A stretch of DNA of 25,000 nt from Prasinococcaceae sp. CCMP 1430 (lineage: Eukaryota > Prasinodermophyta > Palmophyllophyceae > Prasinococcales > Prasinococcaceae), in assembly GCA_013416795.1 (NCBI GenBank), contig RQSC01000029.1, positions 6,458 through 31,457 of the forward strand, in the 5' to 3' direction. Below, one piece after another: positions 2,110 through 23,993 of the stretch; position 1 is the stretch's first letter, and the number at the start of each line of letters is the position of its first letter. Both the position numbers and the translations under genes were made by a program. Below the pieces are notes generated by a model. That model did not search any database and had not been told where the DNA came from. It saw only the letters and a list, made by a program, of their open reading frames with translations.

Positions 2110-3507
2110 ATGGCCGGCGGGCGAAGGGGCAGCGCGGCGGCGCAGCAGCCATTCGTGCCTGCGCGCCCCGCGTACGCACTGCCCGAGGACTACCACCGCT
2201 TCGGCCCGGGCATCGATGCGAACGGCCTCGCCGCGAGCGGGCTGCCGCGCGGCGAGAACATCGTGATGGGCGCCCCAGCTGCCATCCTGCAGGGCCTGGC
2301 CGCGCCCGGCCTCGACAAGCCCGGCCTCGACAAGTCCAACGCGGCCGGGGGCGCCACGAGCGGCGTGGCCGCTGCGGCGGCAGATAGGAGCCGCTCACAG
2401 AAAGGCATGGCGTCGCCGACGCCCGCGTCACGCAGCGGGGCCCGCAACGGCGCTCACGCGGCGGGGGGCGCCGCGCCCAGCAACGGGGCGAACGGGGCGG
2501 CCACGACGCCCGCGAAGGCGCCCGGGTCGGCGGCCAGGCGCAAGAGCAGCGGCTCGCGCTCCAAAGCGCCGGGTACGCCGGCCGGCACCACCGGCGGCTC
2601 CCAGAGCGAGCAGCGCACGCCTGGCAGCACGTGCCGCTACGACAGCTCGCTGGGCCTGCTCACCAAGAAGTTCATCTCGCTCATCGAGGAGGCGGACGAC
2701 GGGACCCTCGACCTGAACAGAGCGGCGGACATGCTGTCGGTGCAGAAGCGCCGCATCTACGACATCACCAACGTGCTCGAGGGCATCGGGCTCATCGTGA
2801 AGAAGTCGAAGAACAACATCCAGTGGAAGGGCATGGGGATGGGGGGGGGCGCCTTGGAAGGGCGGCAAGACATGGCGGGGCTGCAGAAGGACGTGGAGGG
2901 GCTGCATGAGGAGGAGCGCCAGTTAGATGAGGAGATCGCGGCGATGCGCGAGAAGCTGCACCTCTTTTGCGAGGATGGCGCCAACAAGCGCCTGCTGTAC
3001 GTGCGGCGCGACGACATCGTCGGGCTGCCCGCGTTCGCGGGGGACACGCTCATAGCGATCAAGGCGCCGCACGGAACCACGCTCGAGGTGCCTGACCCCG
3101 AGGAGGGCATGGACTACCCGCACAGGCGCTACCAGATGATCATGAAAAGCAGCGACGGGCCCATCGAGCTGCTGCTGCTCGCTGATCCTCAAAACGACGC
3201 CAGGCAGCAGCAGCAGCTGTTGCAGGGGCAGCAGCAGCACGCCGGCGCGGCGGGCGCGGCCGACATGGCCGCACCGAGGGAAGTGAAGCGCGAGACGAGC
3301 GACCTGCTTCCCGACGGCATCCCTGGCCTGCCGCCGGCAGAGGCTTTCCTTGACCCCGGCATTGTCGCGCCGACCAGCCCGATGCGTCCTATCCGTCCGC
3401 ACCCTGAGCCTGACGACTACTGGTTCGCGTCCACAGAAGATGGCAAGCCCCACGACGTGAATCTCGCAGAAATGTTTGGCGAGCCCGAAGATGCCTTCTT
3501 CGGCTGA
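2110..3507 (+). CDS. E2F: E2F-family transcription factor
   Basis: This 465-residue, intronless protein is a canonical E2F, the heterodimer partner of DP that controls G1/S genes under Rb repression. The start is the first ATG in frame (2110) in a good context (gcaATGG). Residues 1-170 are low-complexity Ala/Gly/Ser/Pro. The winged-helix DNA-binding domain spans ~175-241 and carries the recognition signature [17 protein letters not shown] leucine-zipper coiled coil follows (~254-289), then the marked-box dimerisation region (~290-360, ending in ELLLL). A Gln-rich run lies near 365-377. The acidic/aromatic C-terminus (DDYWF, later NLAEMF, ~435-460) resembles the Rb-pocket-binding peptide of animal and plant E2Fs. 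A single DNA-binding domain plus a coiled coil and marked box places it with typical E2Fs rather than DP or the atypical two-domain E2F7/8/DEL type. A run of nine Gs (2841-2849) lies in the coding sequence without breaking the frame. Confidence 0.93.
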
Positions 3508-3982: not shown

Positions 3983-5688
3983 TTAAGCCGCGAGCACGGG
4001 GTCCTCACCCGGCAGCAGCTGGTAGCTGGGCGTCGACTTGGCGATGGTGAGCTCCTCCTCGTTCATGTCGGCGTTGATGGCCGCGAACAGCGGGGTGGAC
4101 ATGTAGCGCTCGGCAGTGTCCGGAAGCATGGTCAGGATGACAGAGCCCTTCTCGGCCTTCTCAGCGACTGTGCGTGCGCATGCGCACGAAGCGGCCGGTC
4201 AGAGTTGGTACGGGCCAATGCAAGCGTCAGGCGCAGACAAGCGCGGGCGCACGCGACGGGCGCGGCGTACGGCGCCAACGCACCCTTGAGCGCCGCCGCG
4301 ATGGAGCCACCACCGCTGATACCGGTGAAGATACCGTTAGTCGCAGCCAGCTTGAGCGAGCACTGCACGGACTCATCGCCGGTGACAGGCACGAGCTCGT
4401 CCATGATGTTCAGGTTGAGGCCATCCTCGCACACCCTGAAAGCGACGCAACGCAATCGGGTTGGGGGGGGGGGGGGGGGGAAGAGTCAGACGATGCGGAG
4501 ATGAGGGAGGTGGAGCGGGCGATGACGCGCAGCGGGCTGGGGGCATTGCAGCGCACGTACTTGGGGATGAAATCCGGGGTCCAGCCCTGCACGGGGTGCG
4601 CAGCGAACGCCGGATGCGACTCCTTGGGAGAGCCATCGGCGTTGCGGTTGGTCTTGATGCCCGATGCAATCAGGCCCGCCGCCTCGGGCTCGGCCAGAGC
4701 GATCTTCGGTGATGCAAGAGGCAGCAGAGGGGAGCGGCGGCGTCAGTTGGTGCGACGAGGGCGAAGATTGCGTGTGCGCGCGCGTGCGCGTGCGTGTGCG
4801 TGTAGGGGCTTTGACGCGACCCCTCCGGTCGTCGGTGGCCCCGGTGTGTCGGAGCGGCGCGTTGCAGGCGGCCCGCGGCGTCCGCAGCGGCACACACCTT
4901 GATGTCAGGGCGCGCGGCCTTGAGCACGCGGCCCACGCCCTGGAACGTGCCACCGGTGCCGTAGCCGGTGACCCAGTAGTCGAGACGCTTGCCAGCGAAG
5001 TCCTTGAGGATCTCAGGGCCGGTCGTGGAAGCATGGTACGCCGGGTTGGCGGCGTTCTCGAACTGGTGGCACAGAAACCAGCCATGCTTCTCGCACAGCT
5101 CCTCGGCCTTGCGCACCATGCCGGTGCCCTTGCCCGCCTTGGGCGTCACGATCACCTTGGCGCCGAGCATGCGCATGATCTTCCTGCGCTCGACGGAGAA
5201 CGGCTCAGCCATGCAGATCACGCAGTTGTAGCCGCGCTGCGCGCACACCATCGCAACCGCAATGCCGGTGTTGCCCGAGGTGGCCTCGACCACGGTGTCA
5301 CCGGGCTTGAGCAGGCCCTTCGCCTCGGCATCGCTAATCACGGAGATGGCGAGGCGATCCTTGACGGACGACAGCGGGTTGAAGAACTCGCACTTGGCGT
5401 AGAGGTCCACGCCCTCCGGGGCCAGGCCCTGGAGCTTGACGATGGGCGTGTCGCCGATGGTCTCGGTGATGTCGTTGTAGATCTGCGCGCTGTGGGGGAG
5501 GGGCGGCGGTGCGCGGGATGGGGGTGAGGCGTGCACGGAAAGGCGCATCAGCGCGCCGCACGCGCCGCTGCGTTCGCGGGCGCTGCGCGCGGGCACGCCG
5601 AGGTTCGCACGCAGGCCACCATCTGGCTGCTAGGCGCGGCGGCCGCCTTGGCGGCCGACGCCTTGGACGCGAGCGAGCACACGGACAT
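3983..5688 (-). CDS. Cysteine synthase (O-acetylserine (thiol)lyase), probably organelle-targeted, five exons
   Basis: This PLP enzyme makes cysteine from O-acetylserine and sulfide. The inferred exons are 5688-5611, 5482-4898, 4703-4561, 4435-4284 and 4167-3983. They join in frame into 380 residues through GT-AG introns of 128, 194, 125 and 116 bp. Exon 1 encodes a short Ala/Ser/Lys leader typical of a transit peptide. The PLP lysine is in NPLSSVKDR (K67), the substrate loop is TSGNTG (94-99) and the phosphate-binding loop is GTGGT (201-205). The C-terminal half has the form HPVQGWTPDFIPK, later GIFTGISGGG and LPDTAERYMSTPLF, which suits the longer cysteine synthases seen in some bacteria and algae. 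The first junction is the least certain: the acceptor at 5483 keeps phase 0 with the donor at 5610, but a nearby CCCACAG with a different donor is possible. The second intron contains an 18-bp G/C homopolymer. Confidence 0.93.
4463..4480. repeat. 18-bp G homopolymer in a cysteine synthase intron
   Basis: Eighteen consecutive Gs on the plus strand read as poly-C on the coding strand. They lie 22 nt upstream of the acceptor at 4436, where a polypyrimidine tract is expected. The exact length may be a sequencing estimate. Confidence 0.9.
4769..4804. repeat. 36-bp perfect alternating purine-pyrimidine tract
   Basis: Every step alternates pyrimidine and purine (CG, TG and a final TA), which is the composition favouring left-handed Z-DNA. 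It lies inside the first large intron of the cysteine synthase gene (4704-4897). Confidence 0.9.
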
Positions 5689-7608: not shown

Positions 7609-8021
7609 CGCGGCCGGCGCGCGGCCGGGCGCCTCAGGCGCGCCGCGTCATCCCACGCGTCCAAAGCCCCCTCCCCAACCCCCACCCGCACCGCCCACGC
7701 GGCGCTCACCCGCCCTCGGCCCTCCGCTTGTCCCGTGGTGTGACGCCCGCCGCACTACGCCGCGGACCGATGCGTCCCGTTGCGCGCGCGAGTCGCGAAC
7801 GTTTCTACGATGGTGCATGTACACCTGGGCAGCGCTGCTCACCCCAGGTCTGTGCAGGCATTCCCCGCTCATTTTCGGGATAATGTGCGTTTGCCAAAAA
7901 TTTCCCCCTAGGTTTTCTCAGGGGGCACAACTGATACTGTAGCAGCAGACGCGGCGTGCGGCCGGTGCGCGGCAGCGGGCGCCATAGTGCGCGCGGCGGG
8001 CGGGGCGCCCCCCCCCCCACG
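7609..8021. promoter_or_regulatory. Divergent promoter spacer between the membrane-protein and adenylate kinase genes
   Basis: This 413-bp spacer sits between two outward-facing ATGs. Most is GC-rich, but 7868-7920 is a conspicuous AT-richer island that includes a CCAAAAATTT run. It is followed by a 6-bp inverted repeat (CCCCCT at 7904-7909, AGGGGG at 7920-7925). A C-run (8008-8018) ends three bases before the adenylate kinase ATG. Confidence 0.45.
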
Positions 8022-9527
8022 ATGGCGCTCGTTGCGGCGGGGTGGCGGGCGGCGGCTGCTGCCGCAGCGGCGGCAGCGGCGGTCGCGGGGGGAGCACCAG
8101 GGGCAGCGGGGGGGGCGGGGGCAGCCTTTGGGATGGCGGCGCGGCTCCCGCTGCGATATGGGGGAATTCAAAGGGCGCGCCTTGTGCGACGAGGGAGCGA
8201 TATGCTCGCTGCACTGCACTGCTCGCCCTCCGTGGCAGCTTCCATGGCCACGAACGCCCACAGCGCCAGTTCAGGGCTTCCGCCAGCGATCCTCTTCCTG
8301 GGCCCACCTGGCGTAGGCAAGGGCACGTACGCGGCGCGGGTCGCGTCACACCTGGGCGTGCCGCACGTCGCCGCAGGCGACCTTGTACGCGACGAGATTG
8401 AGAGCGGAACACCGCTGGGGAAGGCCGTCGCCGCGCACATCGCTGACGGAGGCATGCTCCAAGACGAGGAGGTGTTCGAGCTCGTGTCCAAGCGGCTGGC
8501 CACAGGAGACGTCTCTCGCGCCGGCGTGGTCCTTGACGGCTTCCCGCGCTCAGTTCGCCAGGCGCAGATGCTCGAGTCCGCCGCACGCGCGGATGTCGTC
8601 GTCAACCTCGGCATGCGCGAGGAGGCACTCGTCTCGAAGCTGCTCGGACGCGCGACGTGCGCCAACTGCGGCGCGAGCTACAACACCGCCGAGGTCGACC
8701 TGCCGGAGGTCCCTGAGCAGGGGAAGCCTGCGGTGTTTCTGAAATCGTTGCCAATGCCCGAGGCTGGATGCCGCGAGTGTGGACACACCGAACTTGTGCG
8801 CCGAGCTGACGACGACGAGGCGGTCATCTACAAGAGGCTGCGCGCGCACGAGGTTCAGTGCGCTGGCGTTGCCAACCACTACCGCAACAAGGCGACCAGC
8901 GACAGCGACATGCGTGTGGTGGACTTCGAGATCACCTCGGGGATCCCCGAGACGCTGCCACTTCTCATAGACGCAGTGGTGGGTCCGGGCACGAAGGTTG
9001 GCGTGCCAGCCGGCGACGAGGCCACCGCCGAGGCGGTCAAGAGGGCGCAGGAGGCAGAAGCCGTCGCACCGAGTTCGGGACACCAGGGTACTGCAGCGGG
9101 GGGCACACAGGCGGCGGCGGCGGCGACAGATGTTGAGCAACAAAACAGTGGCGTGCAAGACAGGACATGGGCGCAAGCGAAGGCACAAGCGCAACCCGAG
9201 GCCGAGCCCGCTCACGAGGACGGTGAGCTGATGTTCGTGTACACATGTGGCCAGTGTGGCACGCGCTCTGCCAAGCGCGTCTCCAAGCGCTCGTACTTCC
9301 ACGGTGTAGTGTTGGTGCGATGCGATGGCTGCAAGGCACTGCACCTGGTGGCGGACCGCAAGGGCTGGTTCGACGACAAGCCCATCGGACTGGAAGAGCT
9401 CGTCGGCGCTGGTGCGACCATACTGCCCAGCGGCGATGTGACGCTATCACCAGATGATGCGGAGCGCGTGAAAGAGGCCATGTCAGTGCCTCGGCGCAGG
9501 CCGGGGACATCAGGGACCAATTCTTAA
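8022..9527 (+). CDS. Adenylate kinase fused to a C-terminal DNL-type (Zim17/Tim15/Hep1) zinc finger, organelle-targeted
   Basis: One uninterrupted 501-codon frame encodes two recognised domains. The start is the first in-frame ATG (8022). Residues 1-85 are Ala/Arg-rich and acid-poor, like a mitochondrial or plastid transit peptide. The adenylate kinase domain (~88-325) interconverts ATP+AMP and 2 ADP. It has the P-loop GPPGVGKGT (94-102), an NMP-binding segment GDLVRDEIESGTPLGK and LDGFPRS (171-177). Its LID carries the two Cys pairs CANC (213/216) and CREC (250/253) of zinc-LID kinases. An Ala/Gln linker (~330-405) leads to a DNL zinc finger: CGQC (409/412), RSYFHGVVLVRC, CDGC (434/437), then HLVADRKGWFDD. 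DNL proteins such as yeast Zim17 and algal HEP proteins keep organellar Hsp70 soluble. A role coupling adenylate balance to Hsp70 in an organelle is inferred. All zinc ligands and nucleotide motifs are present, so both halves look functional. Confidence 0.94.
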   Translation: MALVAAGWRAAAAAAAAAAAVAGGAPGAAGGAGAAFGMAARLPLRYGGIQRARLVRRGSDMLAALHCSPSVAASMATNAHSASSGLPPAILFLGPPGVGKGTYAARVASHLGVPHVAAGDLVRDEIESGTPLGKAVAAHIADGGMLQDEEVFELVSKRLATGDVSRAGVVLDGFPRSVRQAQMLESAARADVVVNLGMREEALVSKLLGRATCANCGASYNTAEVDLPEVPEQGKPAVFLKSLPMPEAGCRECGHTELVRRADDDEAVIYKRLRAHEVQCAGVANHYRNKATSDSDMRVVDFEITSGIPETLPLLIDAVVGPGTKVGVPAGDEATAEAVKRAQEAEAVAPSSGHQGTAAGGTQAAAAATDVEQQNSGVQDRTWAQAKAQAQPEAEPAHEDGELMFVYTCGQCGTRSAKRVSKRSYFHGVVLVRCDGCKALHLVADRKGWFDDKPIGLEELVGAGATILPSGDVTLSPDDAERVKEAMSVPRRRPGTSGTNS

Positions 9528-9732: not shown

Positions 9733-10806
9733 TCATCCTTTGACGATGTCAGTGAAGCTAAGCGCCCGTGACTTGGCTTCGTAGTCTCCTGTGCCGAGAG
9801 CTTGCTTGGTCGCCTGCGTGGCGGCCGCCAGCGTCACCCCAAAGTCCATATATGACGCCTTGGTCTCAAGCCACACAGCATCAAGCGCCTCGAAAGTGAA
9901 GGCATACAGCGAGTCGAAGGCTCGTGCGCCGTGCGCTCCATGGACGGAGAGCTGCTCAGCGAATGCGTGCAGCTCTGGCGATGTCGCGTGGGCCGGGATG
10001 ACGGCGCCGCCGGGCTCTGCTGGCGTCTCTGATGCCCCGACGGCAGCGCCGTTGTCAGTGTTTCCCCCCGCCAGCGCTGCCACCAGCGCCGGGTCGCGCA
10101 GGCCCAGCATCGACATCAGAGCGAAGGTGATGTTGACACCCGCCACCGCAAAAGGGTACTCAATGGACGCGCGTGTACCGCGGCTTTTGTTGAGCAGCGC
10201 AGAGAACGCCTGGGGGAAGTGCTGGTGCAGCCCCAGGAGGTTGTCGAGCCCCATCACGCCGCCCCCGCGGAAGTCCGTCGCAGGGTCCTTCCCCTGCCAG
10301 CCCATGTCTTTCCAGCGCTCGCTCGGCCCGCCATCGCTCGGGAGGTCACGGGGGAATGCTGCGGTCCACAACCGGGCCAGAGCGGCGCGATGCTCCGGGT
10401 TGTCGCCGTCAAACATGACCGCTGATCGCGCCACCAGTCCACGCAGCCTCCCTGCGGCGAGGGCACCGAGCACCAGCGGCTTGCCGCCTCGGCCCTTGTC
10501 CTTGCCGCCGAAGCCGCCCCCCCCTCGCTTGACGACGACGGCGCTCACGTTCGTCACTGCATCCAGGATCTTGCGCCATCCTGCCACGAGCGCTCTCAGA
10601 AGCGCCGCCCACACCTGCTGCTCGCGCTGCGAGCTGTCCGCCTCGCCACCGGCCCGCTCGTCGCCAGCCTGCTCATCTCCCGCGAGCAGCGGCGCGCGCA
10701 GCGCCGCGCCCTCCCCGTTGGCGGCGCCCCTTGGCATCCATCCGTCCTTGTCCCAGTGGCTGCCCCCGCCGCTCCCACGCCTGCGCCTCAGCCCCCCATC
10801 GCCCAT
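9733..10806 (-). CDS. ELMO/CED-12 domain protein (ELMOD-like, possible Arf-family GAP)
   Basis: This intronless frame of 357 residues starts at the first ATG (10806, context gcgATGG); the open frame extends to 10890 but without an ATG. Residues 1-100 are low-complexity and basic/Gly-rich. The ELMO domain covers ~130-330. Its hallmark is RWKDMGWQGKDPATDFRGGG (164-183), matching the ELMOD consensus in which the Arg after TDF (R180 here) is the proposed GAP arginine. MGLDNLLGLHQHFP, the YPFAVAGVNITFALMSML helix and the C-terminal FDSLYAFTFEALDAVWLE segment also fit the family. ELMOD proteins act as GAPs for Arl2/Arf GTPases; ELMO proteins instead scaffold Rac exchange factors. The lack of PH and armadillo regions and the conserved Arg favour the ELMOD type. 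A perfect E2F-type site lies 137 nt upstream. Confidence 0.88.
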   Translation of the reverse strand: MGDGGLRRRRGSGGGSHWDKDGWMPRGAANGEGAALRAPLLAGDEQAGDERAGGEADSSQREQQVWAALLRALVAGWRKILDAVTNVSAVVVKRGGGGFGGKDKGRGGKPLVLGALAAGRLRGLVARSAVMFDGDNPEHRAALARLWTAAFPRDLPSDGGPSERWKDMGWQGKDPATDFRGGGVMGLDNLLGLHQHFPQAFSALLNKSRGTRASIEYPFAVAGVNITFALMSMLGLRDPALVAALAGGNTDNGAAVGASETPAEPGGAVIPAHATSPELHAFAEQLSVHGAHGARAFDSLYAFTFEALDAVWLETKASYMDFGVTLAAATQATKQALGTGDYEAKSRALSFTDIVKG

Positions 10807-11131: not shown

Positions 11132-14100
11132 TCACGAGCCCGAGGCATCCGGCTGCTCTCCTGATTCCGCTTGGCTGCCCTGACGCGACGATTCCGTGAT
11201 GGACGGCATGAGGTCCATCGGGTCAACAGCGCGCAGGTTGAAGTCCGCCGTGTGCTCGGGCGCACTTGCCACGCGCCTGTGTGCCGAGCCACCCAGGCTC
11301 CTGCCTGACCTCGAGGAGGGTCCCCCTCCGGACTCACCGACCATCCCCAGGCGAGATGAATCGAGGCGGTTGAAGTCGACGTTGGCTGTCCTGGTGCGCC
11401 GGTGCTTGCTCCTCTTCTTCTTCTCGGGGCTAAGAAATTGGAAGGCTTTCGCCATCTGCTGCGCCTCGCCCGCGCTGATGGCGCCGCTCTGCCTGCGGAT
11501 GGTGTCGACGACCGTCTCGCGTTGCCACAGAGAACTGAGCGATGCCAGAACGTCTGGATCGGAAGAGCCACGCGACGTCCTGCGGCGGCCAGGTACGGCG
11601 CGCATGTCACGAGCGAATTCGACGTCGCGGAAGTCGCCACTCAGCGAGCCCAGTCGACTGCCGAAGGATGGAACCTTCGGGAGCGATGCGCCCCTCGAGC
11701 GACTCGAGCGACCCGCGCGCACGGGCGATCCAGGCGTCGGTGTCGCCGGAAGCGTTTCCACATTCAGAGGCTTGGTGATGACGCGGCTGTTGAATGACGG
11801 CCACGCCGCACCAGCCGCCACAGCTGAAATCGGTGCCACCGGGGCCACCGGCTCCGAGCTCGCCTCTGCATTGGGCTGTGTGCTACAGTCGTCGACAGCA
11901 GCCTTGACCACAGCCTCGGCACCGTCGCCGCTCTCCTTTGGAGTTTCAGCCCACTTGTTTGCAAGCCAGCCGCTCTCGATTTCCTGCAAGATGCCAACGT
12001 CGCCAGGGACCAGCAAACGCTTGGCGCCTACGAGGAGCATGTCGGGCAGCAGCGAGGTCACCACGGCGAGCGTGTACACCAACAGCCAACCAGGCGCGGT
12101 CTCGAGGTACTTCCACATGCCAGCCATATGGGGAAAACGCTGCTGCCAGCCCCACAAGGAGGAGCACGCGTAGAGGAACGGGAACCACAACGCAATCGAT
12201 ATCACCACGATGGACGCCCACTGAGGCCACGACCACCTGCACACGATCATGCCGATGCGCACATTCACAACGGTGATGCAGATGGTATACGCCACCACGC
12301 CGAGGAGCACCACCCCGCCAGACTGCATGCCGTCGTCAGCGGCGACCATACCGGGGTAGACCAAGAAAGGCACGTAGAAGACCACGAGCGAGTGCCAGAG
12401 CGCCAACACTATCCAGCCCGCAAAGCGCGGGAGGTACACGCTACGCATGGCACTAATAGCGACATGATCGTACACCGAGGGTGACTGCAGCACCGCCTTG
12501 TCGGACAGGTCCTTGTCGAAGATTGCCACTGCGATCGTGGGCAAGCTGGTCCAGAACATGTTGTACGTCGAGATCAGCGCCGCGGGATAAAAGGCCTGCG
12601 CCGAGAAGGCACTGTAACACGCGAAGTAGAAATTGGCCATGACGTACACGATGTTCTTGTAGAACGCGTAGCACACGAGGTCGGCGTTGCGCCGCTGGCT
12701 CTGACGGCCATGCACGAGGACCAGACGTTGCAGGTACGCGAACTGCGCCAGCGCAAAGTCAGACGCCAGCACCGCGCTCATGCCCTCTTTGCCTGAGATA
12801 CCAACGCCTACGTGCGCGTGCTTGATCATCGGCACATCGTTAGCACCGTCGCCGATCGCCAGCGTTGCCAACCCTTGCGGCGATTTCTCCTTCACCAGGG
12901 AGGTGATGGCCGCCTTTTCGAGTGGGCTCACACGGCAGCACACGACACTTTCGCACTGCGTACACAGCTGATGGAAGAGATCGCGGGAGTCGTCCCCTAG
13001 CAGATGGCGCACCGCCGATCCTTCGATGACCAGGCCGCACGGGGCCACGCTCGTGGTGTCCTCAGGCTGGTCAATGCCTGTCGCTGGATCTCGCGTGCCG
13101 TCGCTCGCCTGTGATAGCCTTGACGGCGACCTCGTGGGAAATCCCGACTCGATGCTGCTCTGCAATTTTTGGAGGAGCCCGTGGTCGGCTTCGTCCTCGT
13201 TCATTATGAATGAACCCGTCGAGCTACACCTCTGTAGCCTTGACGGCGACCTCGTGGGAAACCCCGACGCGATGCTGCTCTGCAATTTTTGGAGGAGCCC
13301 GTGGTCGGCTTCGTCCTCGTTCATTATGAATGAACCCGTCGAGCTACACCTCTGCATCTTGGAGCGGAACCCGTGCTCGCTGTCGTCTTCGTTCATGATG
13401 AATGAGCCGGTCGAGGTACGTGCATCCGATGTACGCGGCACGTCGCTCCAGTCATCGCTGTCGCTCCCCGACGCGGTGTACGCGCCGTAGGTGGCCGCGG
13501 GAGGCGTCCCGAGGTGCGTTTCCGACGGCGCCTTCACCATCTTGCCCCTGCCCTCCGGCGTCCCCTGCTCAACGACATCTTTGCCACAAGCCAGTGTTGC
13601 GGCGCGGGAGGTCTCACGCAGCAAGTTCCGCAGCGCGTCTGCCGGATTGTGGACCACGTCCTCCTCCCTGACGATGACTAGCTTCATCCATTCCTTGAGC
13701 AGGCTGCAGGTAAGGGCGATGGAGATGGCAGTCTCGAGCTTGTCGCCCGTGAGCATCCATACCTGGATGCCCGCCTCGCGAAGAGCATCGATAGTCTCGG
13801 GGACGCCCTCTTGCAGTTTGTCTTCCACAGCGGTCGCACCAAGCAGCTCGAGGTTCGTCTCGAGCCGCGCAGCACAAGCGCCCACCTTCTCCGATCGATT
13901 CTCCAGCGACACACTGGCCTCTTTGTACTCCTTAGCCCACTCATTCCATTCTTCCTCGGCGAGCACTCGGCGGCCGACGCAGAGGGTGCGCAAGCCGAGG
14001 CGCGCGTAGGTATACAGGTCCCTTTGTGTGACCTCGAGATGCTCCTGCGCGGGCGCGATGCGTTCGAGGATCACGCTGTCCGCACCCTTGCAGTAGACGA

Positions 14101-16937
14101 TCACCTCCCCTGTCGCTTGGCTGCGGCACACCGTGCTCATGCGCTTGCGATCCGATGAAAACTCGAGCACAGCGAGCACCTCGAAGACCTCGTCGACGCA
14201 CGCATCATCGGGCCCGGCTCCCTCATATCGGATGACCGCCTTGTCCGGTGTACGCGACACAAGCCGACATCCGCATTCCGCCACGCCCGTCACTAGGGCG
14301 TCTTCATCCGGTGAGGTGGCCTGGTACTCGAGTTGACCGTCTGTGCCGACGGCCGGGACCACCGTGTTGCAAAGTGCGAGGCATTCGAGGAAGCGTCTCG
14401 TCGCCTCCTCCTGGATGTCGAGGTGGAGCGTGTTCGACATCCGCCGCTGCCGTTGGTCATGTCCTGTTGAAGCATAGCTGCTTGCATCGCCACTGCCCAC
14501 TTTCAGGTCCACCTCGGACGGCGACCTCGGCTCAGAGTCGCCGGCCTCGTTCGACACCTGCGTGCGTGTGCGGACGAGCTCTGGCAAACACCTTGTCACG
14601 AGCTCCTGCACGGAACCATCGCGCGCCACGGCATGCACAGCGGCACACCCTTCCTTGACCCCCTGTGCCTGCCCCGTTGGAAATTTCCCTGGCGGATCGG
14701 TCCCTTCGCCAAAACGCACCCCGCGGATGCTCGTCGCGACGAATGCCATCCTGTTCTGCGTAAGCGTCCCTGTCTTGTCGCTCAGCACGCACGAGATGCA
14801 GCCCAGCTCCTCGTTGAGGTTTGTGGTCCGACACTGTGCTGGTGTGTCCGTTTCCTCGTGGTACATGGCAGCGTCGCGCATGATGAAGTAACACTGTCCA
14901 ACCTCTGCGCGCGGAGGTTTGGTGCGCGTGCGCGCGCGCCCGCGTGTGCGCGCGCCCGCGTGTGCGAGCGCAGGTAGGAGCAATGGTCAGATACAATGCA
15001 CAACATGGCGAAAGAAATGCTCGCACGGCCGACTGCGAAGGCGCCAACGCGCAGCTGCGATGACGTACTGACACACTCCAGCGAAATGTACAGGCTGATT
15101 GGTATGAGCTGCGCCATGAGGATGACGAAGCGCAGCGTCTGTGTGAGAACGCCAAGGGCACCCGCCCTGTACTCGGGCCACGCATCATCCTGCGATCCCA
15201 GGTAGTAGTGTCCCTTCGATGACGTCGTCCACCAGCCGTGCGAGGCGATCGCACTGATCAGGCATAACACAATCTGGAAGCTGAAGACGATTGGGACCAT
15301 CAGATTCATGTGACGCTCGAGCTGGCTAACTTTTCGTGGGGCGACTTCCTCGTTGCGCATGAGGCGCGTGTCTCGCCCGGTGTAGATCACAACGCCGTAC
15401 ACCGCCTCGACCTTGCGTAGCGTTGCTCCGCGCAGCAGAATGTTGTCCGCGACGATGGGTGCGACGAAGCAATCCTTGTTGCTGCCCCTTCCCGACGTGC
15501 CTCCACTAGCTCCTCTTTCCGCGTTTGCGCCCGCCCAACTCCCCTCGACATCCACAGTCCGTCCCGTTTCGGTGCCCCTGACGTTCTCAGCTTCACCGTC
15601 TTGTGCAGCGGCCATCCCCGTCTCCCGCAGATCGGCCCCGTCGGGGGATTGTTCTTGATCTCCCGGCGCGCCGCCGTTCCCACCACCATCGCCGTCGCCG
15701 TCCCCGCCGCCATTACCGCCGCCGTCGCCGCTGCTCTCGCCGCCGCCGTCGCCGCCACCATCAACGCCACCTTCACTTGTGCCTTCCAGTATCGAGTCGG
15801 ACGATGAGAGCGACGAGAACGACCTCAGGACATCGCCATCGACTCTGTATTCGATACTGCCTTCGAACTCATACAGCCGTGGGTTGGGACCCTCAGCGGT
15901 GATGAGAACGCCCTCAAATGCCTCCGCCACGGAGCGCGCCTCGGCCAGAGCGGCGCTCACCAAATCGATGCGCCTGTCTGTGGTGGGCACTGCACGCCCG
16001 ACCTGCCTCGGTGAGGGCTCGGTCGTCTGCACTCCGAGCATTGAGACAGCCTCGTAGTCCGGCGGCGCTGAGACGGCATTCTTGACCTTGAGGTTGGTCT
16101 CGCCATCCAGATTGGCTGTGTTACGGCCCGCGATGCACGGTGGGATCGGTGCGCGCCGGCGCGCCGCCCAAAAAGTTAGTTCGCGCGCGTTCGACCGCCT
16201 CAACTGGGCCCACGCACGCACGCACGCACGCACACACGAGCTGCTATGAAGCATCGCAGCACACGCGCATCCGATTGCAAACCAGCACACGCGCTGCTGC
16301 GTCGCCCGCCGCTGCTCCTCAATGGGGCCCGGGCCACACACAGAGTCGCGCAGTCGCGCGCGCGCGCACCTGTCTCAACGTATGCCACCCCATTGTCCTC
16401 GCTGCTGGAGACGAGCAAGAGGTCCGCGGGAATTTCCTGGTCCTTGTCGACGCGCAGGAGCATGCCCACCTCGACGTTGCGCCACTCGACCCTTCTCTCG
16501 GCGCCCTCTTTGCCGATGACGGCGACCGAGCGCGCGTTGACCTCCCTGTCGCTGATGTGGCGAAAGTAGTCGTCGTAGATTTCCTTGACGGCGTTGACGG
16601 CCAGCACGAGGCCCAGCGGCATCACCGTGGTGAACCAGTGCGTGGGCGACAGGCCTGGGATGAGCTGCAGCGCGGCGATGATGGCGAAGTACACGTTGGC
16701 GACGCGCGTGAACTGCTCGAACATGTTGATCGGCACGAACGTGAGCACTGTGTATTTGGATGTGGTCACCTCGTTGGTGCCGAAGGCGACCTCCTGCGGC
16801 GCAGCGGGGGAGCTGTCCTCGCCTTCCACGCCCACGCGCACCAAGCGCACGCCGCCATCATCGCGCGGGCGCTCGTCGCCGCGCCCGAGCAGCCGCAGCA
16901 CGTGCTCGCAAGCCCCGCGCACAGCCTCGGCCATCAT
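11132..16937 (-). CDS. P4-type ATPase (phospholipid flippase), three exons, with low-complexity and repeat insertions
   Basis: The inferred exons 16937-16370, 16115-15069 and 14904-11132 join in frame into ~1795 residues, against ~1150-1350 for usual P4-ATPases. The 254- and 164-bp introns split conserved motifs exactly: YVET|ANLDGETNLK and ISLECV|KVGQCYF. P4-ATPases move aminophospholipids to the cytosolic leaflet, usually with a CDC50 partner. The N-terminal FVPINMFEQFTRVANVYF signature and first two membrane segments are present. The actuator DGET is at 193-196, PISL is in membrane segment 4, and the phosphorylation site DKTGT starts at ~D581. TGDKLET is near 921, GDGANDVPMIK near 1220, and a multi-pass C-terminal membrane region follows, ending in a ~330-residue Ser-rich tail. 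Two insertions enlarge it: a Gly/Asp-rich block (~302-338) in the actuator domain and a tandem 40-residue repeat block (~1030-1136) before the GDGAND motif. The start is the first in-frame ATG; 16934 is an adjacent alternative. Confidence 0.94.
13115..13354 (-). repeat. Two tandem 120-bp repeats in the flippase coding sequence, plus partial copies
   Basis: Copies 13115-13234 and 13235-13354 differ at only two of 120 positions. Each encodes 40 residues containing SSTGSFIMNEDEADHG. A truncated third copy (about 13379-13419) and an older variant (SEHGFRSKMQ) lie upstream in the protein. The exact codon multiple keeps the ATPase frame. Confidence 0.95.
14922..14967. repeat. Alternating CG/TG tract in the second flippase intron
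   Basis: Three runs of alternating purine and pyrimidine (14922-14939, 14941-14955, 14957-14966) are interrupted only by single CC steps. They sit just upstream of the acceptor at 14905. Confidence 0.85.
16211..16238. repeat. CACG microsatellite in the first flippase intron
   Basis: A 28-bp perfectly alternating tract built of CACG units lies in the intron 16116-16369. A second CG tract (16355-16369) abuts the donor of the same intron. Confidence 0.9.
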
Positions 16938-17236: not shown

Positions 17237-17712
17237 CGTCGATCGATCGAGGCTCGCCTCCTCCGCCGTCCGTCCCAGATCGACCGACCGACCGACCGAC
17301 CGAACAAAACAATGCACGCCGGGCAACCAACCAACATACAGTAACATCCAACCCCCAACCAACCAAAACCGGGTTGCGGGTCTCAGCCCCGGTTGGGACC
17401 TCCTGGATGTGTTGGGGCTGACTGTATTGTGAACTCGTCACTCGTCTAATATTCCTATTCCTTCCAACCTCACGCCCCGACCGACCGACAGATCTAGAGC
17501 CTGGCTGGCGGGGTTGATTGAGCACCAGCCGTCCAGTTTTGATGGTCGGTCCCGCTGCGCTGCGCAAAACCTCAAATAATGGTCGCTGGGAGCGGGGCGT
17601 TCTGGTTCGAATTGGTACGGGTGCCGTCCAAATGGGAAACCCTACATTCCGGGGGCGCGCGACGGCTGGCCAGCCGCCGCCACACCGGCGCGCGCGCGCG
17701 CGGCGGCCGGCG

Positions 17713-17740
17713 GGGGGGGCGGGGCAGACGGGAGGGGGGC
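17713..17740 (+). other. Potential G-quadruplex in the UTP7 leader
   Basis: At least four runs of three or more Gs fall within ~28 nt of the plus strand, in a purine-rich block extending to ~17870. If transcribed, the G-runs are in the UTP7 5' UTR. Confidence 0.5.
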
Positions 17741-17974
17741 AGAGAGGAGGGCGCGCTCGCGCGCGCGGGGAAGGGAGGGGGGTTCGCGAGGCGGGAAGGC
17801 GAGAAGGGAGGAGAGGGTGCCAGGCGACGAAGGGGGGAGAGGGGGCGCTTGGGGCGGCGGGGGGCCGGGCAGCGGTCGCTTCACGTCGCTTCCGTTCGCT
17901 TCGCGCCGCGTGGCCTCAGCGGGCAGGCGGAGGCGGAGGCTGCGCACGCAGGCCTGGGCGGCGAGGGCTGCGCG

Positions 17975-19696
17975 ATGGCGGCGGGTGGCACCGACGGCGG
18001 CGCGCAGGGCGCGTCGCCCGAAAGCGAGCGCGCGCCGACGCGCGCCGAGCGGCAGGCAGCGGCGACGGTGTCCGCGAAGAAGCGCAAGGCTTCGCTCGAT
18101 GCGGCGACCAAGGCGACAGCCCGCGAGAAATACGCGCGCGCCCCGGGCGACGCCAAGGGTGTCACGACCGCCAAGATGCGCGACAAGAAGCTCAAGGGCC
18201 AGGTCAAGTCGCAGGAGAAGAAGTTCGCTGCGGCCGCGCGCCAGGCGGCGCTCATTGAGCGCTGGCTGCTGCCGTCCGAGGCGGGCTCGCTTGAGGCCGA
18301 CGGCCCGCTGGAACGCACGTGGCGCTTCAAGCAGGACGACATCCGGGCGGCGGTGGACAGGGCGTCGGCGAGGAAGGCGTTCGAGCTAACGCTGCAGGGC
18401 GGCCCCTACCGAGTCGACCTCACGCGGTCGGGCAGGTACGCGCTGCTCGCGGGGCACAAGGGCCAGCTCGCGGTGATGGACTGGAGCCGCCACCACGCGG
18501 TGACCGAGCTCGACGTGCGCGAGACTGTGCACGACGGCGTCTTCCTGCACAACGAGCGCTTCTTCGCCGCGGCGCAGCGCAAGTACACTTACATTTATGA
18601 CCAGCGCGGCATCGAGATTCACTGCCTCAAGAAGCACGCGGGTGCCACGCGCCTGACGTTCCTGCCGCACCACTACCTACTTGCGAGCGTGGGCTCCAAG
18701 GGCGTGCTCACATACCAGGACACAACGTGCGGCGAGGTGGTGGCGCAGCACAGAACAAAGTCGGGCGCGTGTGGCTGCCTCGCACTCAACCCGTGGAACC
18801 AGGTGAGCGTGCTGGGTCATCAAAACGGCACGGTGTCGCTGTGGACGCCAAACATGCCCGCGGCCGTGGCCAAGGTGCTCACGCACCGCGGCAACGTGCT
18901 TGCGGCTGCGGTGGACCCGCATGGGCGATACCTCGTGACGGCGGGCATCGACAGGCAGGTGGCAGTGTGGGACGTGCGCACCTACGCCAAGCTGCACGCG
19001 TACCAAGTGCCCACGCCTGCGACGGCGCTCGAGGTTTCGCAGCGCGGCGTGCTGGCGCTGGCGTACGGCCCGCACGTGCAGCTGTGGAAGGACGCGCTGG
19101 TGGAGAAGGCGCAGGCACCCTACCTCCGCCACTCGTATCCTGGGCGTGGCGCCATCCACGACGTGGCCTTCGTGCCGTACGAGGACGTGCTGTTTTGCGG
19201 TCACGGCAGCGGCGCGGGCACGGTGCTCGCACCGGGTGTGGGTGAGCCGAACTTCGACTCGTTCGTGGCCAACCCGTACGAGACGAAGAAGCAGCGCCGC
19301 GAGCAGGAGGTCCACCAGCTGCTCGACAAGCTGCCGCCCAAGACGATCCAGCTGGATCCTGACCGCATTGGCACGGTCCAAAAGGAGGCCAAGGAAGAGC
19401 AGATCGAGCGCCAGAGGGCTGCGGCGGAGGCGAATCGCTCGACCAACGTCAAGCGCAAGACGGAGGAGCAGGACACGAAAACCAAGCGCGTCAAGGGGCG
19501 CAACAGGGCGTCCAGGCGATTCAAGCGCAAGCAGCAGAACGTCGTAGACGTGGCGCGTTTCCAGGCGGAGGCGAAGGCAGAGGCGCTGGTGAAGAAGGCG
19601 GAGCGTGAGAAGGAGGCACTCAAGGAGAGGCAGCAGCGCCAGGCCGGAGCGATGGGCGACTCGGCTGCACTCTCCAAGCTCTGGGGCAAGCGCTAA
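17975..19696 (+). CDS. UTP7: UTP7/WDR46 (BING4), U3 snoRNP small-subunit processome WD-repeat protein
   Basis: This nucleolar scaffold acts in 18S rRNA processing. From the ATG at 17975 (context gcgATGG) the product is 573 residues, matching yeast Utp7 (~554) and human WDR46 (~610). The N-terminal Lys-rich region contains the family pattern KGQVKSQEKKF, then LLPSEAGSLEADGPLERTWR and FKQDDIRAAVD. WD-type blades occupy ~140-380 (for example YLVTAGIDRQVAVWDVRTY). The BING4 C-terminal domain (~383-465) carries YLRHSYPGRGAIHDVAFVPY, then GEPNFDSFVANPYE and LLDKLPPKTIQLDPDRIG. A basic coiled tail follows (KGRNRASRRFKRKQQN, ending LSKLWGKR). An upstream in-frame ATG (17579) would add 132 Gly/Arg-rich residues with no family similarity, so it is less likely. 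No intron is needed. It is divergent from the flippase gene and convergent with the Ser-rich gene. Confidence 0.95.
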   Translation: MAAGGTDGGAQGASPESERAPTRAERQAAATVSAKKRKASLDAATKATAREKYARAPGDAKGVTTAKMRDKKLKGQVKSQEKKFAAAARQAALIERWLLPSEAGSLEADGPLERTWRFKQDDIRAAVDRASARKAFELTLQGGPYRVDLTRSGRYALLAGHKGQLAVMDWSRHHAVTELDVRETVHDGVFLHNERFFAAAQRKYTYIYDQRGIEIHCLKKHAGATRLTFLPHHYLLASVGSKGVLTYQDTTCGEVVAQHRTKSGACGCLALNPWNQVSVLGHQNGTVSLWTPNMPAAVAKVLTHRGNVLAAAVDPHGRYLVTAGIDRQVAVWDVRTYAKLHAYQVPTPATALEVSQRGVLALAYGPHVQLWKDALVEKAQAPYLRHSYPGRGAIHDVAFVPYEDVLFCGHGSGAGTVLAPGVGEPNFDSFVANPYETKKQRREQEVHQLLDKLPPKTIQLDPDRIGTVQKEAKEEQIERQRAAAEANRSTNVKRKTEEQDTKTKRVKGRNRASRRFKRKQQNVVDVARFQAEAKAEALVKKAEREKEALKERQQRQAGAMGDSAALSKLWGKR

Positions 19697-22512: not shown

Positions 22513-23993
22513 ATGGTCCACGTGCACGTGACCGTGCGCAGCCCTAGCGGCACGGAGCACACGAGCACGATGGATCTGCCGGTGCGCGCGGTGCCGCTGC
22601 GAGCGGCGGTGGCGAGGGCTCGGGCTCGCGAAGTGGCCACCGCCGAAGCCAGCGATCAGGAGCCAGGAGGCCACGGCGGCGGCGCCAGTCCCGCAACCGG
22701 CGCCGGGCCTGACGGTCTCTCCACCAGCGGCGCTGGCGGCGAGCATGGCAGGGGCGATCGCGGCGGCGGCGACGGCGCTGGTGGTAGCGGCGGTGGAGTT
22801 GGAGGAGGCGCGGGTGGCAGAGGCGGCGCGAGAGATGCGCCCCCTGGGCGCATCCATCCTGTTCGCGGGTACTCGCCGTTCGATCCAGAGGATTGCATCG
22901 ACGATGGCGAGCGAGACCGGCGGCCTTTGGGATGGCAGGAGATCGCCCAGGCCGAGAGCGATGATGACGAGTACGTCGAAAGGCTGGTGTTGCCGGAGGA
23001 GCTGCGCAGGCGCGGCGCAACCACCAGGCCCAGCGCCCAAGTACTGGGACGACGGGACGACATGCACTTCGACCGATACTGTCCGCCCAGCCCCGACGAG
23101 TTCTCGGTCGATCACGTGTGGCGAGTCATGTGCGGATGCTGCGGCTGGCGGCTGACTGAGCGCGGGATGGCGGTGGAGCTGGTAGCTCACGAGGAGCGGG
23201 CCGACCCGTTGTCGACAATCCCATCTTATTTCTCCACAGATGATATGCTCGCGTGCGTGGTAGAGGTCGACGACGTGGCCGTCGACGAGAAAGCTGAGCA
23301 CTGCGACTGCACCATCCGACCGATCCTGTGCGAGGCATGCAGGTGGAAGGTTGGCTACAGAGTCATGCGCGCGTGCAAGGCCTGCAGCGGCAGCAGCACC
23401 AACGGGCACCGGCTCATCTTCGACCCAGATGAAGTGGCGTTGTGCGTCGCGCGCGAAACCAGCCCGCCTCGCCCGCCCGCTCCGCAATGGTGTCCTCCAC
23501 GCGCCCAGGTTGACTGGCACGCTCCGCCCGTGCTGACTGCGCTTTTGCACCACCTGCCAACTGCGCACACATGATGCGCGCCGCCACTGCGCGCGCCGCA
23601 TGCCTGATCTCTCGTGCGCGCGGCTCATCGCTCCGCAGCGACTACGTACTCACCGAACAGGGCGACTATTTGCTGTGGGACGAGGCGCAGCTCGAGGATG
23701 TAGTCGACAGGTGCCCCTCGCCAGCGGCGGTCGCAGCCGCGCGCAAACGCGACGCAGAGGAGGAGAGAGAGTTCGAAACCAAGCGCAGGAAGCGCCTGCC
23801 GAAGCGCTGCCGCGGAGGATACGCCGAGGCTACCTATCCCAGCTCCCGGAAGCTTCTGAGGCCGAGCTCGCCGCCACGATGGGTCCAAGGCGGCGCCTGG
23901 CGCTGGCAGCCGGGCCCCGTGACTGCTCAGAGCCGTGACGCAGCAACAGCTGGCACCAGCACAGAAACGGCCAAGAACGCCGAAAGCCCATAA
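22513..23993 (+). CDS. FAM72: FAM72-family protein with a long N-terminal extension, two exons
   Basis: The inferred exons 22513-23441 and 23639-23993 encode ~427 residues. The donor TT|GTGCGT and acceptor CCGCAG keep phase 2 across a 197-bp intron. The start ATG sits in an optimal context (cgccATGG). Residues 1-~195 are an extension: a basic start, a long Gly-rich run and an acidic segment. The FAM72 core (~200-345) aligns by eye with the family. It has CGCCGWRLTERGMAVELVA, then an ST(I/D)-type segment FSTDD, CDCTIRPILCEACRWKVGY, and CKACSGSSTNGH followed by LIF, with the cysteine pattern of a probable zinc-binding fold. After the splice, YVLTEQGDYLLWDE matches the family's GVNVLLW region. 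A basic tail (KRRKRLPKR) could be a nuclear signal. Human FAM72A binds and antagonises the uracil glycosylase UNG2 and is cell-cycle regulated; whether that holds here is unknown. Family assignment is firm, function less so. Confidence 0.86.

Follow-up and report, generated by a model that had tools for sequence, protein, structure and literature searches.

A predicted fusion of adenylate kinase and a Tim15/Hep1-type DNL zinc finger in the alga Prasinococcaceae sp. CCMP 1430

Architecture of the fusion gene

The window analyzed here is a 25,000-nucleotide stretch of the genome of the alga Prasinococcaceae sp. CCMP 1430 (GenBank assembly GCA_013416795.1, contig RQSC01000029.1, positions 6,458 to 31,457 of the forward strand), and the gene of interest encodes an adenylate kinase followed by a DNL zinc finger. 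The open reading frame (ORF) listing gives a single frame of 501 codons plus a stop, which begins with ATG, has no internal stops, and is preceded by a stop in the same frame at 7932. Pfam ADK (PF00406) matches residues 93-291 with 112.6 bits against a cut-off of 26.8 (2e-32), and zf-DNL (PF05180) matches residues 405-461 with 76.3 bits against a cut-off of 27 (2e-21). The ADK_lid family scores below its Pfam cut-off (22.1 vs 26.6), probably as a result of an insertion in the LID, and none of the 21 NCBIfam matches to the protein reaches its cut-off, the top one being TIGR01351 adk (165.8 bits vs 168). An earlier note on this DNA, made from the sequence alone, had described adenylate kinase motifs and a complete DNL finger in one frame, and all of these are present: GPPGVGKGT (with K100), DGFPR (R176) and LID cysteines 213/216 and 250/253, and, beyond the linker, Cys 409/412 and 434/437 with H441 and D445. 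The parts of the gene and its neighbors are listed in Table 1.

Table 1. Parts of the fusion gene and other matched genes of the window
Feature	Coordinates	Strand	Remarks
Whole fusion gene	8022..9527	+	Uninterrupted ORF; P0001 has the same architecture
N-terminal leader, residues 1-87, Ala/Gly/Arg-rich	8022..8282	+	Sole acidic residue D60
Adenylate kinase domain, residues 88-326, long type, zinc-type LID	8283..8999	+	
LID Cys pair 1, C213/C216	8658..8669	+	From alignment
LID Cys pair 2, C250/C253	8769..8780	+	From alignment
Linker, residues 327-400	9000..9221	+	Predicted local distance difference test (pLDDT) mostly < 50; coding-like in ORF frame only
DNL zinc finger, residues 401-475, mitochondrial Tim15/Hep1 type	9222..9446	+	
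Zinc knuckle 1, C409-GQ-C412	9246..9257	+	
Zinc knuckle 2, C434-DG-C437	9321..9332	+	
H441 to D445	9342..9356	+	Align with yeast Tim15 His/Asp taken as H107, D111
C-terminal tail, residues 476-501	9447..9524	+	Predicted helix 477-487
E2F with CC-MB domain	2110-3507	+	Family match; no evident link to fusion
PALP-family pyridoxal phosphate enzyme	4670-5548	-	Family match; no evident link to fusion
ELMO/CED-12	9733-10806	-	Family match; no evident link to fusion
BING4CT/WD40 protein	17579-19696	+	Family match; no evident link to fusion
Yippee homolog 2 zinc finger match	22513-23574	+	No evident link to fusion

A genuine fusion of the two domains in one frame is supported both by the linker and by a second sequence. 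A codon model derived from five further ORFs of the window (one trimmed) gives residues 326-400 a value of +0.17 bits per codon when they are read as in the ORF, and negative values in the remaining five frames; the leader (-0.13) and the tail (-0.12) score slightly below zero. Methionine is absent from residues 297-404, so that internal initiation could yield only a leaderless DNL piece. The top match in a set of 5.8 billion proteins, P0001, has both domains within 501 residues at 98-99% identity, and differs from the fusion by eight substitutions (positions 26, 28, 75, 78, 167, 283, 295 and 380). P0001 represents 23 member sequences and has one listed contig, of 2209 bases; since it is a slightly different second sequence with the same architecture, it argues strongly against a chance join in the assembly, whatever the nature of that contig.

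The earlier note had raised an assembly error, or splicing between the domains, as ways in which two genes could appear as one. The former is made unlikely by P0001. As to the latter, residues 323-403 contain 10 GT and 26 AG dinucleotides, which can be combined into 89 potential GT-AG introns no shorter than 60 nt; none of the 89 begins with any of the eight hexamers listed as strong donors, and 41 weak pairs are in frame. These 41, together with the slightly negative coding score of the leader, are the points in favor of a gene-model artefact in which two genes, or two spliced products, have been misread as one. Set against them are the uninterrupted frame, the coding signal of the linker, the lack of any pairing between the listed strong donors and a distant AG, the missing methionines, and the independent occurrence of the architecture in P0001. 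An assembly error or a pair of separate genes was rejected on these grounds, and we regard an artefact of the gene model as very improbable.

The fusion is likely to be rare, although further examples are possible given the poor sensitivity of the searches for the DNL part. The whole-protein search, which scored only the 7,995 candidates with the most shared words, yielded 39 matches, and the precomputed Pfam annotation gives zf-DNL for P0001 alone of these; a word search with the DNL region among proteins of ~275-877 amino acids returned only P0001 from 31 candidates. Common 5-residue words are required by this kind of search, and a DNL-only run gave two proteins from 461 candidates. The fusion was not found in viral contigs (by DNL alignment) or in prokaryote genome contigs (with the whole protein), collections that do not consist of algal genomes. 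Among the papers listed from open-licence PubMed Central text none describes the ADK plus zf-DNL combination, and the one paper that has both adenylate kinase and Zim17 mentions them separately. The database check proposed earlier thus produced a single further protein with both domains, and the statement that no protein of this architecture has been described is consistent with the literature and protein searches within their limits. As far as these reach, the gene appears to be an undescribed combination of two well-known families. The bifunctional HGPRT/AK of Zobellia galactanivorans is likewise reported as an adenylate kinase joined to another functional domain, but its partner is a metabolic enzyme whereas that of the algal fusion is a chaperone cofactor (PMC7326950).

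The kinase and the zinc finger

The N-terminal part has an ADK score above the curated Pfam cut-off, a complete fold, the key residues, and four LID cysteines. In an alignment of the window protein with 19 of the 39 whole-protein matches (A3; a second alignment, A4, holds 32 sequences), R123, R176, R210, R261 and R272 are invariant, K100 is nearly so, and position 206 is Lys in at least 90% of the rows; the P-loop Lys, DGFPR and the phosphate-binding Arg residues of adenylate kinases are all kept. C213, C216, C250 and C253 align with the LID cysteines of 1zin. Of the 20 rows of A3, just three, those of the fusion, P0001 and P0002, have C250 and with it the set of four.

In a tree of 45 adenylate kinase rows the fused kinase is sister to P0002 (100/99), a 331-residue adenylate kinase without a DNL domain, and the two fall inside a 31-row clade (98/96) that holds all ten rows named as green alga or plant, two of them named adenylate kinase 1 and 6. 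Going by these names, the clade may correspond to AMK1/AMK6. Only these two splits serve as evidence, the bootstrap being unsettled with 24 of 42 inner branches open, and several rows from the alga's own genome being partial or long-branched. P0001 (near-identical), P0038 (777 amino acids) and the DNL proteins P0040 and P0041 were left out of the tree, as was L016, an eighth ADK locus of the genome that lies under the Pfam cut-off; human AK3/AK4 are also absent from it. The other ADK-family genes of the genome all place outside the clade (7/7), and a profile built without the fusion gives the fused kinase 271.7 bits and the next gene of the same genome 199.9. The 28 relatives P0002-P0029, taken as organellar adenylate kinases of the green lineage and sharing the clade with the Zea mays 'adenylate kinase 6', are 36-51% identical to the fused kinase (24 of them at 40% or above), and the 18 aligned in A3 share the LID region with it; unlike in the fusion, zf-DNL does not appear in the precomputed Pfam annotation of any of the 28. 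The human mitochondrial adenylate kinases AK3/AK4 are likewise not known to have a DNL domain. Five of the relatives (P0022, P0023, P0025, P0028 and P0029) form a separate cluster (100/100), in which P0022, P0023 and P0025 have low-complexity C-terminal tails of ~50-70 residues that end in ACA or ACG, a further case in which this kinase is extended at the C-terminus.

A profile search of the 24.5 Mb genome (145 contigs) found two zf-DNL domains above cut-off, that of the fusion and that of L002 (G000 C37, L002:1387-1740, + strand), and the same two were recovered when the fused finger was used as a protein query, although a third copy split by an intron could escape detection. L002 is a plastid-like DNL protein with an Ala/Glu-rich tail and a near-identical counterpart in P0040, and it matches P0041 of Mesotaenium (genus from the source label 'Mesen1') at 32/56 positions. 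Over the same 56 positions the fused finger is identical to Tim15 at 23, to L002 at 19 and to P0041 at 14, and a four-point test on similarity scores recovered the split of fusion and Tim15 from L002 and P0041 in 4980 of 5000 column resamplings; the fused finger does not group with the plastid-like sub-type. By resemblance L002, P0040 and P0041 correspond to HEP2/ZR1/ZR2, which have the zf-DNL family in common with the fusion; the plastid type has 'LVDNL.LV.EYD' after the finger and the sub-type of the fusion 'L[IV]AD....F.D'. The plastid label of L002 and P0041, and the role of L002 as a plastid escort, are presumptive and draw in part on the features of plant sequences.

With Hep1/Zim17/Tim15/DNLZ/ZR3 (PDB 2e2z) the fusion shares the zf-DNL family, the four cysteines, the Tim15-like sub-type, and equivalents of human R81 (R415), H107 (H441) and D111 (D445). 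The equivalent of yeast R106 is Leu440 rather than Arg. Residues R106, H107 and D111 in yeast, and R81, H107 and D111 in the human protein, are reported to act in Hsp70 binding or stimulation (PMC4890766). Human Hep1 is described as a small protein of 15 kDa (PMC8347752), whereas in the alga the DNL finger sits C-terminal to an adenylate kinase. In Arabidopsis, Tim15-2 is reported in mitochondria only; Tim15-1 and Tim15-3, which branch apart, are reported as plastid-located, with a cytosolic signal as well for Tim15-3 (PMC9695410). The earlier assignment to a mitochondrion or plastid can therefore be narrowed: the fused finger is of the mitochondrial Tim15/Hep1 type, and the plastid-like type belongs to the other gene, L002.

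Proposed organelle and candidate Hsp70 partners

Given the Tim15-like sub-type, and since no second gene of this sub-type was detected in the genome, we suggest that the fusion is the alga's Hep1, in which case it acts in the mitochondrial matrix and the kinase along with it. Hep1 is described as a small matrix partner of mitochondrial Hsp70 (mtHsp70) that blocks its self-aggregation, and the human form as raising its ATPase rate (PMC8347752); it is reported to bind only nucleotide-free mtHsp70 and to be released by nucleotide binding (PMC4890766). The protein is thus probably a bifunctional matrix protein, Hsp70 escort (Hep1/Zim17) and adenylate kinase in one. It would be imported into the matrix as a single chain and escape proteolytic splitting, the flexible linker tethering kinase to escort. 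The C-terminal finger would serve as the cell's mtHsp70 escort, keeping the aggregation-prone nucleotide-free form soluble and handing it over once nucleotide is bound, and the N-terminal domain would work as a zinc-LID adenylate kinase (ATP + AMP <-> 2 ADP). As its motifs and zinc residues are kept, the predicted kinase should be active, interconverting ATP, AMP and ADP in the matrix, and the alga would thereby gain a matrix adenylate kinase beside a chaperone whose escort is released by nucleotide.

This assignment is less secure in some respects. The leader, called transit-like in the earlier note, is basic with a single acidic residue among 88, which makes that description plausible, but its highest hydrophobic moment (0.51, residues 38-75) was reached by 435 of 2000 shuffled sequences and so does not rise above them. 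No clear gene for a canonical mtHsp70 was found in searches of the genome. The sister kinase P0002, finally, has no DNL domain, so that the kinase can work without the finger. The Hsp70-family genes that were found are BiP (L017), a cytosolic Hsp70 (L018) and a plastid-like DnaK (L019), two of whose best models are cyanobacterial DnaKs; there are also divergent DnaK-like genes, L022/L023 (G000 C101:163514-165275, - strand) and L025 (G000 C82:902584-904554, - strand). The mtHsp70 gene may be divergent or missing. Pam16 and Tim44 are also encoded in the genome.

The ambiguous type of the leader is also a point in favor of a location in the chloroplast stroma, where the fusion would act with plastid Hsp70 in a HEP2-like role. 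Two kinase relatives, P0018 and P0021, are named chloroplastic, and AMK1 (At2g37250) is listed as both mitochondrial and plastid (PMC7865908), but the finger falls with Tim15 of mitochondria, and it is the other DNL protein, L002 with its counterpart P0040, that resembles the plastid type; a plastid protein seems improbable. We think it about equally improbable that one protein serves both organelles, or that precursors begun at different methionines go to different organelles. The leader does have several in-frame methionines, at residues 1, 38 (8133), 61 (8202) and 75 (8244), the last of which is Val in P0001, and dual targeting is reported for Arabidopsis parts of the import motor, though Tim15-2 itself is given as mitochondrial only (PMC9695410) and the alga already has a plastid-like DNL gene.

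The examined loci of the genome have a G+C content of 65.7%. Apart from the genes of Table 1, the window has a long ORF at 11132-14881 (- strand) with the motif DKTGTLTQN and near-identical stretches around 'SSTGSFIMNEDEADHGLLQKLQSS' (translation). The motif points to a putative P-type ATPase, probably a P4 lipid ATPase.

Kinase and proposed escort in one protein

Within the assignment as a bifunctional matrix protein, it may or may not matter that the two activities are joined. A coupling between them, of the kind suggested in the earlier note, is plausible because nucleotide releases Hep1 from mtHsp70 (PMC4890766), and as a speculation the escort cycle might be adjusted by the kinase. In its strongest form, a dedicated matrix kinase would be hard-wired to the alga's sole mitochondrial escort; it would produce ADP/ATP on the spot at the nucleotide-free Hsp70 bound to the escort, or sense AMP/ADP, and chaperone release and protein import would then track the energy charge of the matrix, which we consider rather unlikely. 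We judge a neutral fusion, which is equally compatible with the bifunctional protein, to be the likelier of the two and a serious contender: two mitochondrial housekeeping proteins would have come to share a leader after loss of an intergenic region, with independent domains and no regulatory meaning. The long linker, of low confidence in the predicted structure, and the restriction of the fusion to one lineage in the protein searches fit such a history, as does the finger-less P0002. Pointing the other way, if indirectly, are the general principle by which a functional link is predicted for domains that occur fused (PMC2879367, PMC3155505) and the nucleotide gating of Hep1-Hsp70 binding cited above.

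Plant AMK2 and AMK5 are reported to be plastid proteins; for the remaining adenylate kinase isoforms a mitochondrial location or dual targeting is given (PMC5853452). In two reviews, the enzyme of plant mitochondria is placed in the intermembrane space and not in the matrix (PMC7865908), and is said to be missing from the matrix (PMC4309032). If the proposed role is correct, adenylate kinase would occur in the matrix of an alga whose lineage is said to lack the enzyme there, and the fusion makes it testable whether adenylate kinase activity is present in the mitochondrial matrix of the green lineage and whether Hsp70 escorting is linked to the local adenylate balance.
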